From the NCBI RefSeq assembly GCF_001625445.1, contig NZ_LWHG01000030.1:124001-188000 (forward strand): a stretch of 64,000 bases of DNA, written 5' to 3'. This DNA comes from Haladaptatus sp. R4 (GTDB taxonomy: Archaea > Halobacteriota > Halobacteria > Halobacteriales > Haladaptataceae). Below, piece by piece: positions 23,741-53,654 of the stretch (the first letter of the stretch is position 1; every line of letters begins with the position of its first letter). The position numbers and the translations under genes were made by a program. The notes below the pieces were generated by a model. It made no database searches. It saw nothing but the letters and a program-made list of their open reading frames with translations, and had not been told where the DNA came from.

Positions 23741-24979
23741 ATGGTATCCGATGAGTCAGATGATCGTGATCCACTCTTCCGATACGATGATCCCATTTTC
23801 GCTCGGGAAGAACTTTTGAAAATCAAGCATATACCTGGATCGGACCGGATCGTCGGCCGAGATAAGCATATGAAGCAGGTTGCAGAGGCACTTAACCCTG
23901 CAATTTTTGGCCGTGAACCGACTCATCTCCTCATCTTCGGTGAAACCGGCACGGGAAAAAGTTTGATCTCGCGAAGTGTGACCGAACGCGTTATCAACGA
24001 AGCTCAGCGAGACGATATCACGGTGAAAGCTGCCTACGTGGATTGCGGTGAGCAAAACACCGAAGCTGGTGTCGTCAAAACCATTGGGCGCGAACTTAAC
24101 GAGCCAACACAAAGCAATATCACGATTCCTGAACGAGGACTTGCAACTGGAGATTACTATCGTCGTCTTTGGGATGTTCTCGACAGATGTTGTGACGTCG
24201 CGATTCTCATTCTTGATGAAATCGACCTTCTCGAGGATGATGAGGTCCTTCGAAAACTATCGCGAGCAGGTGAAAATCAACAGATATCTGATTCCAATAT
24301 CGGTATTGTCGGCATCTCTAACAAGATCAACTTTGCAGATGAGCTCGGTGAGCGCGTTAAATCCAGTTTTGCACGCGACGAACTAGTTTTTCCTGCATAC
24401 GATGCAACTCAACTCGTCGATATCCTCGAGAATCGTCGTGATGCCTTCCGTGAGGACGTCCTCGAAGGTGACGTCATTCCCCTGACCGCAGCACTCGCAG
24501 CTCAGGAACATGGGGACGCCCGCAAAGCAATCGATATTCTTCGAAATGCTGGCCGGATCGCTACTCAATCGGATACTGTGCCCGTAACTGACGAGCACGT
24601 TCGCCAAGCGAAGAAAAAGACCGAAGCCGACCGATTTGCCGAGTTGATCGCTGGCGCTCCAACGCAAGCAAAGACGATTCTGTTGGCACTTACTACCCTT
24701 ACCGAATCCGAACAAGCAGACGAATTCTCTACGAAGGAGATTTATCGACGATATCAACAGATTGCGCGTGGTACCGGTCTTGATATGCTCTCTGAACGCC
24801 GTACACAAGAAATTCTGAAAGAGCATGATTTCCTGAATGTGATTCAATCAGAACGTCGGGGACGTGGGCGTGGTCAAGGGGTTCACGCAAAGCACCGTCT
24901 CCTCGAAGAACCCGATATAGTCAAATCTGTACTCGAACAAGATTCCCGCATTAGCGATTTTCTCTCGTCGATTGATTGA
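23741..24979 (+). CDS. orc1: Orc1/Cdc6 replication initiator 1
   Basis: 412 residues. The AAA+ domain contains DRIVGRDKHMKQVAEAL (initiator-specific entry), Walker A GETGTGKSL (about residues 67-75), Walker B AILILDEIDLL (about 148-158), and sensor region IGIVGISNKINFADELGERV followed by the Arg-finger region RDELVFPAYDATQLVDIL. The C-terminal third is the winged-helix domain that binds origin boxes (FSTKEIYRRYQQIARGTGLD). Translation starts at ATG 23741 just after the iteron array, with a TATA-like element about 30 bases upstream, consistent with leaderless transcription. It should bind the TTACATCCGCGAC set and load the replicative helicase. It is oriented towards the second orc gene, with which it converges. 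Confidence 0.97.
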   Translation: MVSDESDDRDPLFRYDDPIFAREELLKIKHIPGSDRIVGRDKHMKQVAEALNPAIFGREPTHLLIFGETGTGKSLISRSVTERVINEAQRDDITVKAAYVDCGEQNTEAGVVKTIGRELNEPTQSNITIPERGLATGDYYRRLWDVLDRCCDVAILILDEIDLLEDDEVLRKLSRAGENQQISDSNIGIVGISNKINFADELGERVKSSFARDELVFPAYDATQLVDILENRRDAFREDVLEGDVIPLTAALAAQEHGDARKAIDILRNAGRIATQSDTVPVTDEHVRQAKKKTEADRFAELIAGAPTQAKTILLALTTLTESEQADEFSTKEIYRRYQQIARGTGLDMLSERRTQEILKEHDFLNVIQSERRGRGRGQGVHAKHRLLEEPDIVKSVLEQDSRISDFLSSID

Positions 24980-38939: not shown

Positions 38940-39190
38940 AGTATATTCATATGCTCTGCGTGTAAAATATTCACGGGCACTTGGAGAACTTCTGCACAAT
39001 CGATCGAGACTCTGATGGCCACCAGCGCCCATCACGTCGTCGATCGTGTTCGGATCGGAGATAGACTCAATAAACACTACTCGTTCGGAACATCAGAACT
39101 ACCCTGTACAAGCAGTACTTTTCGATCAATCTATCGAACCCGCTTCTGGCTGCCAATAGTTTGATGCCACTCTCTGGGCTAGCAGGCAGT

Positions 39191-39346
39191 ATGCCACGAC
39201 AATTCAGTTGTGTGGTCGAGGGATGTGACTTCACCGCGGAAGGAGTCACTGAAGAAGAGGTGCTTGAGCAAGTCCAAGAACATGCGAATGCTGAACATCC
39301 GGACGTCGACGTGGAAGAAAGCATGGTTCGAGAAAACATAGAGTAG
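39191..39346 (+). CDS. DUF1059-family small protein (51 aa)
   Basis: From ATG 39191: MPRQFSCVVEGCDFTAEGVT and EEEVLEQVQEHANAEHPDVD. The C-x(4)-CxF...EE...H...H pattern is the DUF1059 signature (predicted small zinc-binding protein), and the length is typical. The frame extends 10 codons upstream but the family starts here. Function unknown; found widely in haloarchaea. Confidence 0.8.
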   Translation: MPRQFSCVVEGCDFTAEGVTEEEVLEQVQEHANAEHPDVDVEESMVRENIE

Positions 39347-39923
39347 TCATAGAACCGCCGTCCGCTAAACAATACCTCTTGTACTGCTTCGGGCCAAAAT
39401 TCCGACCCTGGAGATCTACTCCGTGAGCATGATGACGGCACTCACGATTGGGCTGGAATTCGAGATGATGCGGGTTAAATGCCAAGCGGGTAGCCGATGG
39501 TGAACTGATTTCACCGTTTAGGGTCCTGTCGAGTCGTGCCTCTGACTTCACTTAGACAGGCGTGGTGGCCGAGTTTCCCCGAGCCAACTCAACCAACGAG
39601 CGTATCGGAAAAAGAAATTCTGACCAATTTCTCAAAACCAAATCACAACGGCAATTCACTACGACACCAATCGATTCGCTCATCCCCCATCTCCGACAGC
39701 ATAGGTAACTAACAATGTAGTTACGTTCTGTTTGTTCTTTCTCTACCGTCAGGCACCCAATAACAATACTCGAAGCGCCCGATAGAAAAATTGCGAGCGT
39801 CGCACTACACCAGTCAGGTTGTCGTGTCCTGCGACGCTTGGTATCGTCAACGAAAAAACACCACGCCTGATGCCCAACGTCCGCTGTGTGGTTGTGCTGG
39901 CACGACCACACATTGTTTCACGA
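39347..39923. other. Intergenic, nothing recognised
   Basis: 577 bases between the DUF1059 gene and the tRNA-like element. Open frames on either strand (for example 39552-39911) lack haloarchaeal composition or motifs. No IS end or iteron was seen. Confidence 0.35.
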
Positions 39924-40013
39924 GAACGGGTTGCTTGTTGGTAGAAGCACCATCGACGCCACGTCGATGGCGGCCACTTTGTGGCCCCGGTGGTTCGATT
40001 CCACCCCCGTTCG
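39924..40013 (+). tRNA. tRNA-like element with cloverleaf but abnormal anticodon arm
   Basis: Acceptor arm GAACGGG (39924-39930) pairs with CCCGTTC (40006-40012), followed by G. D-arm GCTT-GTTGGTAG-AAGC (39933-39948) has the invariant GG. T-arm GGTGG-TTCGATT-CCACC (39989-40005) is a textbook T-loop. Between them are a stem CCATCGA/TCGATGG (39950-39956 and 39964-39970) with a 7-base loop CGCCACG, and a 6-bp variable-arm hairpin GGCCAC-TTT-GTGGCC (39972-39986). The anticodon stem is 7 bp instead of 5, position 33 would be G instead of U, and a class II-like variable arm goes with a formal CCA (Trp) anticodon, which is unheard-of for tRNA-Trp. So it is either a degenerate or novel tRNA-like gene, not an ordinary tRNA. 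Confidence 0.55.
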
Positions 40014-40376
40014 TCGCACACGAACCCTCGCTTCAGATTTTTCCCCCTGGTACATCGAATGACGTTCACGGACCGCACTGTTCAGCGAACATTCATGGAA
40101 CGTACGGATGCAACGACCGAGAAGCAGAAATTCAGAGATTGGTTTCCTGCCTGTCCACGCATCTGCCGAAAATCGCCGGAATATTGGTTGATGTATTGGA
40201 ACTTATCGACGAAAATCTCCTCGTCAACCATTTACACGTCACCACTCGCAAGACGGTTGCTGAATTCCTGACGTTCCCGCTTTCGATCCTTTGCGATAGG
40301 GTCAATCACTTCCTGGTGATGACGTGGTTGATCAGACCCAATGCCACGTCGTTTAGGGTGAGGTAACCGCCGTGAA
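40014..40376. other. Intergenic, nothing firmly recognised
   Basis: 363 bases between the tRNA-like element and the transporter gene. Two overlapping open frames (40079-40271 and through 40366) have no family features. Confidence 0.35.
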
Positions 40377-41630
40377 TCAGGGAAGAAGCTCGGCGACCTG
40401 TACCACCATCAACGCCATAAAGAGGAGCGCACTGATGATCAACATCGAATTGGAGAGCCAATGGTTTCGTTCACCGGACTTGGTCTTGTCCGAGTTGAGG
40501 AGCAACAAGAGAACGATAGCAAGGAACGGCATGAATATCGCGCCTAGAGCGCCGTACAGGACGATGAGGAAGACCGGCTTCCCGTAGAAATACAGCACCA
40601 TCGGCGGGAACGTCAGCCACAGCACGTAGAATTTGTACCACTTAGTCTGACGAAGCGACACCTCATTCACCGCGTTCGCCGAGTCAGTCGTTACTGTCTC
40701 GACGAAGTCAGCAAACAAGTATGAAACGCCGTGCCAAACCCCGAGGAGCGAGGTAAACGAGGCGGCCCAGAAGCCGACCAAAAACCCAGTCCGAGCCAGC
40801 GGATTCAACTCATTACCGAGATTGGTCGCAAGGACGATCAGTCCGTCCTTGCCCGAGACAGACGCACCCGTTCCGTACAGGAGTGCTGCGCTCATCATGA
40901 TCAATGCGATCGAAAAGATACCCGTGATGGCGTATGCCGATGAAGCGTCGAGTCGCATCGTGCGGATGTGATTGGCGGAGTCCCAGTCTTTTTCCGCGAG
41001 CCAGTAGCCATACGATGCCATCGTGATCGTTCCACCAGCACCGCCGATCAGCCCCAGTGCATAGACAACCGACCCTTTGGGAAGCGCGGGGATCCCAGTC
41101 GCGAGGATTTCGTCAAGTTGCGGAATCACGAGAATCGCGGAGCCGATAACGCTCACGAACATGAGCGCGACCAAGGCGGTAATCAGGTTCTCGAACGTTT
41201 CGTACTGATTGAACAACACCAGTATACAACCGAGAATCGGATGGGCGACAATGTATACCCAGAACGGAATTCCCGGGAACAGTGCGTTCGCAGCGAGTGA
41301 ACACGAGGCAGCGACGGCAGCACCGTACACGAATCCCCAAATCACCGTGTAGCCGCCGAAAAACCCGGATGCCCACCGTCCAAGTGAGTCGATTCCTTCG
41401 AGAATGGTCTCGTTGCTCGCCAGATGATATCGTCCTACACCCTCGTTCAACGAGAATTTGACTGCCACTCCAAGTACGATCGCCCACACGAAGTTCAATC
41501 CATAACTGCTCCCAGCGACGAGGGCGGCGACGAGATCCCCAGCGCCAACACCGGTGGCGGCGACGATGAGACCCGGCCCGATCAACGACCAATTCGTCGT
41601 CTCCTCCCCACTGTTTCTTTGTTCAGCCAT
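40377..41630 (-). CDS. NRAMP-family-like divalent metal transporter, non-canonical metal site
   Basis: 417 residues with 11-12 hydrophobic segments and the LeuT-fold layout of NRAMP proteins. Helix 1 reads LIGPGLIVAATGVGAGDLVA in place of the canonical DPGN metal-binding motif, and helix 6 (LIGGAGGTITMASYGYWLAE) lacks the MPH motif. These are the residues that bind Mn2+ or Fe2+ in MntH, so a different substrate (such as Mg2+) or mechanism is likely, as in NRAMP-related transporters with altered sites. The protein is otherwise complete. The upstream region (41631-41783) is AT-rich with a likely promoter near 41660-41700. Confidence 0.85.
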   Translation of the reverse strand: MAEQRNSGEETTNWSLIGPGLIVAATGVGAGDLVAALVAGSSYGLNFVWAIVLGVAVKFSLNEGVGRYHLASNETILEGIDSLGRWASGFFGGYTVIWGFVYGAAVAASCSLAANALFPGIPFWVYIVAHPILGCILVLFNQYETFENLITALVALMFVSVIGSAILVIPQLDEILATGIPALPKGSVVYALGLIGGAGGTITMASYGYWLAEKDWDSANHIRTMRLDASSAYAITGIFSIALIMMSAALLYGTGASVSGKDGLIVLATNLGNELNPLARTGFLVGFWAASFTSLLGVWHGVSYLFADFVETVTTDSANAVNEVSLRQTKWYKFYVLWLTFPPMVLYFYGKPVFLIVLYGALGAIFMPFLAIVLLLLLNSDKTKSGERNHWLSNSMLIISALLFMALMVVQVAELLP

Positions 41631-52691: not shown

Positions 52692-53654
52692 TTATTCGAT
52701 GTCCATCGCATCGATCTGTTCCGGATATCGGTTGCGAATCGTTACTTCGGTCACCTGTGCAACTGAAGCGACCGTATCCTGTGTTTGTTTCTCATTACAA
52801 AGCAGTGAAGCAGCGTAAATCGCCGCCGCAGCATACCCAGTGGGTGACTTTCCTGAAAGCAGGCCCTTTGCTATCGAAACATCAAGAATTTCGTTTGTTT
52901 TCGCTTCAACGGCGTCACTGCACCCGAGTTCTGAACAAAATCGAGGGACATACTGTTTCGGGTCAACTGGTTCGATCTCGAGTCCAAGTTCCCGCCCAAC
53001 ATATGTGTATGAGCGACCGATCTCCTTTCGTTTCACACGGGATACATCCGAAACCTCCTCGAGGCTGCGAGGAATATTCTCGCTGCGGCATGCCGCATAC
53101 AGACAACTTGTCGCGACTCCTTCGATCGACCGGCCTTGAATCAGGTCGTCTTCTAAGGCACGGCGGTACAGTACACATGCGATCTCGCGAACCGAACGCG
53201 GAATACCGAGTGCGCTCGCCATTCGGTCAATCTCGCTCAGAGCGAATTGGAGGTTACGCTCGCCTGCGTCTTTTATTCGGATTCGCTTTTGCCACTTGCG
53301 TAATCGATGCATTTGATGACGTTTGTTGACGGAGAGCGAGTTGCCTGCCGCGTCCGTGTTTTTCCAATCAATGGTTGTTGTGAGACCTTTATCGTGCATC
53401 GTTTGGGTGATTGGTGCGCCGACCCGAGATTTGTTCTGATGCTCTCGATGTGTGTAGGCCCGCCACTCTGGCCCACGGTCGATTGATTTTTCTTCAACAA
53501 TTAAGCCACAGTTCTCACAAGCGACTTCGTTTCCATCTGCGCTCCTATGGAGTGTGTTTGATTTACACTCGGGACAATCTTGTACGCCCTCTTGTTCATC
53601 TGTGCTACATTCCGTCGACGTATCTCGCTCATCCCGACGGGTAGGGCGTAACAT
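52692..53654 (-). CDS. tfb: Transcription initiation factor TFB (TFIIB homologue)
   Basis: 320 residues. An N-terminal zinc ribbon (DCPECKSNTLHRSADGNEVA, then CENCGLIVEE) is followed by the B-finger/linker (DRGPEWRAYTHREHQNKSRV) and two cyclin repeats: FALSEIDRMASALGIPRSVR ... LYAACRSENIPRSLEEVSDV and FCSELGCSDAVEAKTNEILD ... SPTGYAAAAIYAASLLCNEK. Haloarchaea carry many TFBs, including plasmid ones, that tune gene expression for stress. A TATA-like TATATAAATAA lies only about 5-15 bases before ATG 53654, unusually close; a leaderless transcript would have to start within the coding region. Confidence 0.96.
   Translation of the reverse strand: MLRPTRRDERDTSTECSTDEQEGVQDCPECKSNTLHRSADGNEVACENCGLIVEEKSIDRGPEWRAYTHREHQNKSRVGAPITQTMHDKGLTTTIDWKNTDAAGNSLSVNKRHQMHRLRKWQKRIRIKDAGERNLQFALSEIDRMASALGIPRSVREIACVLYRRALEDDLIQGRSIEGVATSCLYAACRSENIPRSLEEVSDVSRVKRKEIGRSYTYVGRELGLEIEPVDPKQYVPRFCSELGCSDAVEAKTNEILDVSIAKGLLSGKSPTGYAAAAIYAASLLCNEKQTQDTVASVAQVTEVTIRNRYPEQIDAMDIE

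Follow-up and report, generated by a model that had tools for sequence, protein, structure and literature searches.

A family of tRNA-like RNAs without a decoding arm in the Halobacteriales, with leader-bearing plasmid copies in Haladaptatus

RNAs that mimic a tRNA but do not decode have been known from isolated examples in mammals and bacteria. The bacterial YrlA Y RNAs are non-coding RNAs with a tRNA-like module. In the haloarchaea, the known natural tRNA-like element of Haloferax volcanii is a processing signal beside the 5S rRNA; Holzle 2012 reportedly used the name t-elements for such elements. RNase P and tRNase Z of H. volcanii also process tRNA-like elements that flank a crRNA (PMC4946936). 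In mammals, mascRNA possesses a longer stem with a compact loop instead of an anticodon arm and is cut by RNase P and RNase Z (PMC11693755). The Bacillus cereus tRNAOther has no function in translation, is expressed within a larger RNA and has been proposed to work inside a larger regulatory RNA (PMC3399842). Here we describe a tRNA-like RNA gene of Haladaptatus sp. R4 and its relatives which, as far as we found, form a previously undescribed, order-wide family of non-decoding tRNA-like RNAs.

The gene lies in a stretch of 64,000 nucleotides that was analysed as a whole (hereafter the window). At positions 39924-40013 the original prediction, made from the letters alone, had placed a tRNA-like cloverleaf, and this cloverleaf is real: ARAGORN calls a tRNA-Trp(cca) with identical coordinates, in line with the formal Trp anticodon that had been read there, the minimum-energy RNA fold of the segment is the same cloverleaf, and homologues exist. 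Its folding energy is -48.7 kcal/mol compared to -29.5 (sd 3.2) for dinucleotide shuffles (z = -6.1), none of the 200 shuffles being as low. All the elements that had been pointed out are present in this fold, namely a 7-bp acceptor (GAACGGG/CCCGTTC), a D stem (GCTT/AAGC) with GG in the D loop, a 6-bp variable arm (GGCCAC-TTT-GTGGCC) and a T arm (GGTGG-TTCGATT-CCACC). The acceptor length, the D arm with GG and the T arm with a TTCRANY-type loop are traits of canonical tRNAs. The base preceding the CCA is indeed a G, as stated for position 33. The 7-bp anticodon stem was right as far as a stem with a 7-nt loop can be drawn, but the central arm closes beyond it into an 8-9-bp rod, CCATCGACG/CGTCGATGG, that leaves just CCA (or GCCAC) as a loop. 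Since the arm is shut in this way, there is no 7-nt decoding loop and no usable anticodon loop. We infer that the tRNA-like domain forms the 3' module of a longer RNA, about 235 nt in length. The parts of the locus are the following.

39751 to 39769, plus strand: conserved promoter-like box AGGCACCCAATAACAATAC, with the invariant core ATAACAAT at 39760-39767
39794 to 39840, plus strand: leader hairpin 1, CGAGCGTCGCA ... TGCGACGCTTG, from the fold of the window
39885 to 39912, plus strand: leader hairpin 2, TGTGTGGTTGTG-CTGG-CACGACCACACA, from the fold of the window
39924 to 40013, plus strand: tRNA-like domain including the discriminator G at 40013, from ARAGORN, the fold and homologues
39924 to 39930, plus strand: 5' strand of the acceptor, its 3' strand being at 40006-40012
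39933 to 39948, plus strand: D arm GCTT-GTTGGTAG-AAGC, from the fold and the pair count of the alignment
39950 to 39970, plus strand: sealed hairpin of 8-9 bp with the loop CCA that replaces the anticodon arm, from the fold and the lack of a canonical arm throughout the family
39972 to 39986, plus strand: long variable arm, from the fold and the pair count of the alignment
39989 to 40005, plus strand: T arm, from the fold and the pair count of the alignment

As had been noted, the setting is gene-free: the stretch with the RNA gene is bounded by a DUF1059 gene at 39191-39346 and, on the other side, by a minus-strand Nramp gene at 40377-41630. Stretches at 39124-39388 (including the DUF1059 gene), 39397-39675 and 40131-40288 recur with 70-91% identity at unrelated sites in other Haladaptatus genomes and are repeated pieces flanking the RNA gene. 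The window also encodes a replication initiator of the Cdc6/Orc1 type (23741-24979, plus strand) and a transcription factor of the TFIIB type (52692-53654, minus strand), both as on a large secondary replicon.

To judge decoding ability, a canonical anticodon arm was defined as a 5-bp stem and a 7-nt loop with Y32, U33 and R37. Such an arm is found in 42 of the 43 Haladaptatus sp. R4 genes called tRNA, the sole failure being the chromosomal mimic described below, compared to none of 92 family members. The central-arm loops mostly count 3-6 nt across the family, two members (L163 and L169) carry a TTCG tetraloop, and on relatives ARAGORN returns Cys, Glu, Gly, Arg, His or no call. As judged from these sequences, family members cannot decode in the usual way, which agrees with the earlier statements that the locus is not a normal tRNA-Trp and could be a tRNA-like RNA, and contradicts its reading as a suppressor. 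For the cloverleaf locus there is no Rfam match at gathering thresholds; the top match below threshold is tRNA-Sec (RF01852). The ARAGORN label Trp(cca) and this sub-threshold match would favour a genuine decoding tRNA of unusual form (Trp, Sec-like or suppressor), but we consider this highly improbable in view of the missing canonical arm in all members, the variation of the three loop bases between copies and the lack of SepSecS in the Haladaptatus sp. R4 genome. tRNA-Sec itself was rejected: RF01852 scores 36.5 bits where 47 are required, the branch is 7 + 5 bp instead of 13, and SepSecS has no match in the genome. The family resembles tRNA-Sec and the Sec-like allo-tRNAs in that its variable arm is long and its anticodon stem extended. 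The acceptor branch of tRNA-Sec, however, has 13 bp (8/5 or 9/4, PMC7609411) compared to 7/5 in the RNA of the window, and tRNA-Sec and allo-tRNAs decode whereas the family is without a decoding loop.

Haladaptatus sp. R4 holds three copies of the gene, that of the window included, and eight of nine Haladaptatus genomes together hold 34, fragments and duplicated segments counted. They are situated mostly on megaplasmids and large plasmids; named carriers are H. halobius, H. pallidirubidus, H. salinisoli, H. litoreus, H. caseinilyticus and Haladaptatus strain DYF46. On the 21,460-bp H. halobius plasmid NZ_CP085343.1 (L138) there is one tRNA-like gene per ~10.7-kb unit, and the plasmid seems to consist of two such units joined head to tail. 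On the chromosome of H. pallidirubidus YIM 93656 (NZ_CP085301.1; G190:C1) three copies are repeated at an offset of exactly 551,849 bases (pairs 1611767/2163616, 1679917/2231766 and 1683506/2235355), which is either a large duplication or an assembly artefact.

In an alignment of the 26 full Haladaptatus copies, mean pairwise identity amounts to 92% in the acceptor, D and T parts, 58% in the two variable arms, 45% in the leader and 26%, about chance, in the downstream flank. The conserved region extends ~165 nt upstream of the tRNA-like domain and comprises the ATAACAAT box and the two hairpins. Six of the seven acceptor pairs are invariant and the remaining one is G-C or G-U, the D and T arms are near-invariant, and the discriminator G and the variable arm occur in all 26 copies. 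In the variable arm 99.3% of the cells are paired and three of six pairs have changed on both sides; leader hairpin 1 reaches 96.8% with five of six consensus pairs changed on both sides, and leader hairpin 2 reaches 92.3% with four of six. The compensatory changes exceed those of all 500 shuffles and of all slid controls, for the tRNA-like part and likewise for the whole RNA. The original prediction had counted a lack of compensatory changes in homologues as a refutation, and such changes are there; because copies elsewhere bear them, chance is excluded as the source of the cloverleaf. By this pattern of substitutions, the Haladaptatus copies are under purifying selection on the RNA and not in decay. 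A decaying tRNA pseudogene might be suspected from a cloverleaf without a decoding loop and from the fact that some copies in the genus are truly broken, but it is scarcely credible given the 92% core identity and the compensatory changes in the 26 copies and the conservation across the order; the suggestion of a degenerate tRNA falls with it. The broken copies are a 3' half of the tRNA-like part alone (G186:C6:175681-175732) and a copy on an H. caseinilyticus plasmid (L134:6001-6120) in which the leader is kept, the box is damaged and the tRNA-like part is absent.

Another explanation concerns the central arm and the leader. Central arms range from 8-bp rods to long hairpins among the 26 copies and, like the leader loops, differ between paralogues in recurring types, as might be expected if the RNA regulated mRNAs by base pairing through its leader or central loop, while the tRNA-like part stabilised it and fixed its end. 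The precedent of tRNAOther, a proposed part of a larger regulatory RNA (PMC3399842), points the same way, but central loops of mostly 3-6 nt are too short for a seed, and we regard such base pairing as improbable.

The genomic surroundings were examined by clustering the open reading frames around 31 copies and 30 chromosomal relatives, which yielded no conserved partner gene and merely local synteny within groups and scattered repeats. Similarity between pairs of copies mostly begins in or upstream of the RNA and stops a few bases from its 3' end. The presence of copies mainly on plasmids in unrelated contexts, and a half copy (the 3' half on G186:C6) that resembles an integration scar, could suggest an attachment site or a part of a mobile element. 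No integrase, however, was found within 20 kb around that half copy, pairwise similarity is mostly bounded by the RNA ends and selection acts on RNA pairing, which leaves this origin a slim chance and does not sustain the integration target that had been proposed. The supposed link to plasmids and viruses stood for its first half, given the Haladaptatus megaplasmids, but not for its second: the Haladaptatus gene has no match in the viral contigs and the viral and phage collections searched, and a viral or phage origin was rejected.

Haladaptatus sp. R4 also carries, on another contig, an odd 'tRNA-Ser(act)' (G000:C28:138459-138543) that emerged from the tRNA listing and has the same architecture as the RNA of the window, with a box CATAACAA at about -33. 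The acceptor of this chromosomal relative is GGAAGGG/CCCTTCC. By BLAST it was found in 38 of 117 Halobacteriales genomes, and a covariance model of the chromosomal relatives matched 159 of 293, or 141 of 293 when matches were kept at E up to 2e-8, among them all nine Haladaptatus genomes. The weaker matches within the order were dropped because weak matches outside the Halobacteriales look like ordinary tRNAs; the latter reach at most 54 bits with a length of about 72 or 82 nt, and were taken to be ordinary tRNAs by score and length. As about half of the sampled genomes are without a strong match, the RNA is not essential to the Halobacteriales. Conversely, a search of 99 genomes with the plasmid-type model at E < 1e-6 yields, outside Haladaptatus, just two matches (53-55 bits): the relative carried by a Halorientalis plasmid and another in an f8 genome. 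Such reciprocal model matches support a common origin of the plasmid and chromosomal types. Between the acceptors of the window and of the chromosomal type, two pairs are double-compensated (G2-C71 to A-U and A4-U69 to C-G). A GAAAGGG-type relative is located 5 nt upstream of a tRNA-Gly(UCC) in L215 and again in L217, genomes that belong to different families; this spacing is consistent with tRNA-type processing.

All 26 aligned Haladaptatus plasmid-type copies possess the core ATAACAAT, and the related CATAACAA lies ~33 bp upstream of all four chromosomal Haladaptatus relatives read. The box is absent upstream of each of the 26 tRNA genes checked in the Haladaptatus sp. R4 genome. It probably acts as a promoter, and one idea is that the TFIIB-type factor of the window might read this unusual box.

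Seryl-tRNA synthetase (SerRS) recognises its substrates by the variable arm and G73 (review, PMC7609411), and the long variable arm with a G discriminator in 26 of 26 Haladaptatus plasmid-type copies would fit an RNA charged by SerRS. In the wider family, however, the discriminator is A in 16 of 91 analysed members, several members (f5, f15) have no separate variable arm, and many relatives, read directly, show a bulged base in the T stem; moreover, the clustering of neighbourhoods links no acceptor enzyme to the RNA gene. A SerRS substrate is in our view rather unlikely. A Y RNA partner of Ro60, like YrlA, which the RNA resembles in a general way, is still harder to defend and was rejected on the distribution of TROVE proteins. 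Above the curated cut-off, such Ro60-like proteins occur in six of 117 genomes of the order (including L238 and L239), but the four Haladaptatus genomes of this sample, sp. R4 among them, have none, so that, unlike the YrlA case, the RNA of sp. R4 exists in a genome without Ro60; the chromosomal RNA is present in nine of nine Haladaptatus genomes despite the absence of TROVE in the four sampled.

The members of this family thus share with known non-decoding tRNA-like RNAs a tRNA-like top half, no functional anticodon loop and being under selection, and we are confident that they are conserved, non-decoding RNA genes. The closest resemblance is to mascRNA and menRNA, the 3' modules of MALAT1 and MEN-beta (PMC11693755), which have a tRNA-like acceptor and T arm with an elbow, carry a longer stem with a compact loop where a tRNA has its anticodon arm, and, as in the window, sit downstream of another RNA part. 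Unlike the family, they are mammalian, ~60 nt long, with a small D arm and without a long variable arm, and no sequence relation is claimed; cutting by RNase P and RNase Z is a feature of theirs that would have to be extended to the haloarchaeal RNAs. tRNAOther is likewise a non-translational tRNA-like element within a larger RNA (PMC3399842), as proposed here, but it is a single bacterial case, whereas the haloarchaeal family comprises multiple copies, extends across an order and has its central arm sealed. The t-elements have in common with the family that they are tRNA-like elements in haloarchaea; by description they are set apart, as the t-element adjoins the 5S rRNA whereas most family genes are solitary and have an upstream box of their own.

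Our best explanation is that of a non-decoding tRNA mimic that is processed and acts in trans, and as a whole we give it an even chance. Transcription would begin downstream of the ATAACAAT box and produce a precursor of ~235 nt in which the two-hairpin leader precedes the tRNA-like domain. Recognising the tRNA elbow, RNase P and tRNase Z would excise this domain, by which the 3' end of the leader RNA would be set as well, and CCA would possibly be added to the excised domain. Maturation by these two enzymes is a finely balanced matter; indirect support comes from the 5-nt spacing to tRNA-Gly(UCC) in L215 and L217, from RNase P RNA, which was found in the Haladaptatus sp. R4 genome, and from the precedents of the crRNA-flanking elements in H. 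volcanii (PMC4946936) and of mascRNA (PMC11693755). In trans, the excised domain would occupy a protein that recognises tRNAs by their elbow or acceptor, an action that can be likened to the tRNA-like modules of mascRNA/MALAT1 and of Bacillus tRNAOther, and that we put forward tentatively, with the balance somewhat against it. A regulatory role of the tRNA-like RNA is plausible. Since the leader is restricted to the Haladaptatus plasmid type, its function cannot account for the order-wide family; the single-copy chromosomal gene would have come first, and its leader-bearing plasmid counterparts would have multiplied within Haladaptatus. In another reading, the RNA is a dedicated haloarchaeal tRNA without an anticodon, which is charged and supplies a pathway outside the ribosome, or else titrates a factor that binds tRNA; the Haladaptatus plasmids would then have leader-bearing versions of their own. 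We think this unlikely.

A published description of the family was not found in the open-licence literature, and to our knowledge no archaeal order-wide family of such anatomy has been known. Gene finders mislabel these RNAs as ordinary tRNAs of arbitrary isotype (Trp in the window; Ser, Arg, His, Gly, Cys or Glu elsewhere) or miss them. A family that spans the order, present on the chromosome and expanded on plasmids, provides dozens of natural variants for study, which could reveal the tRNA features that are needed by RNase P, tRNase Z, the CCA enzyme and synthetases, and it raises the question of what use a cell has for a tRNA that is unable to decode.
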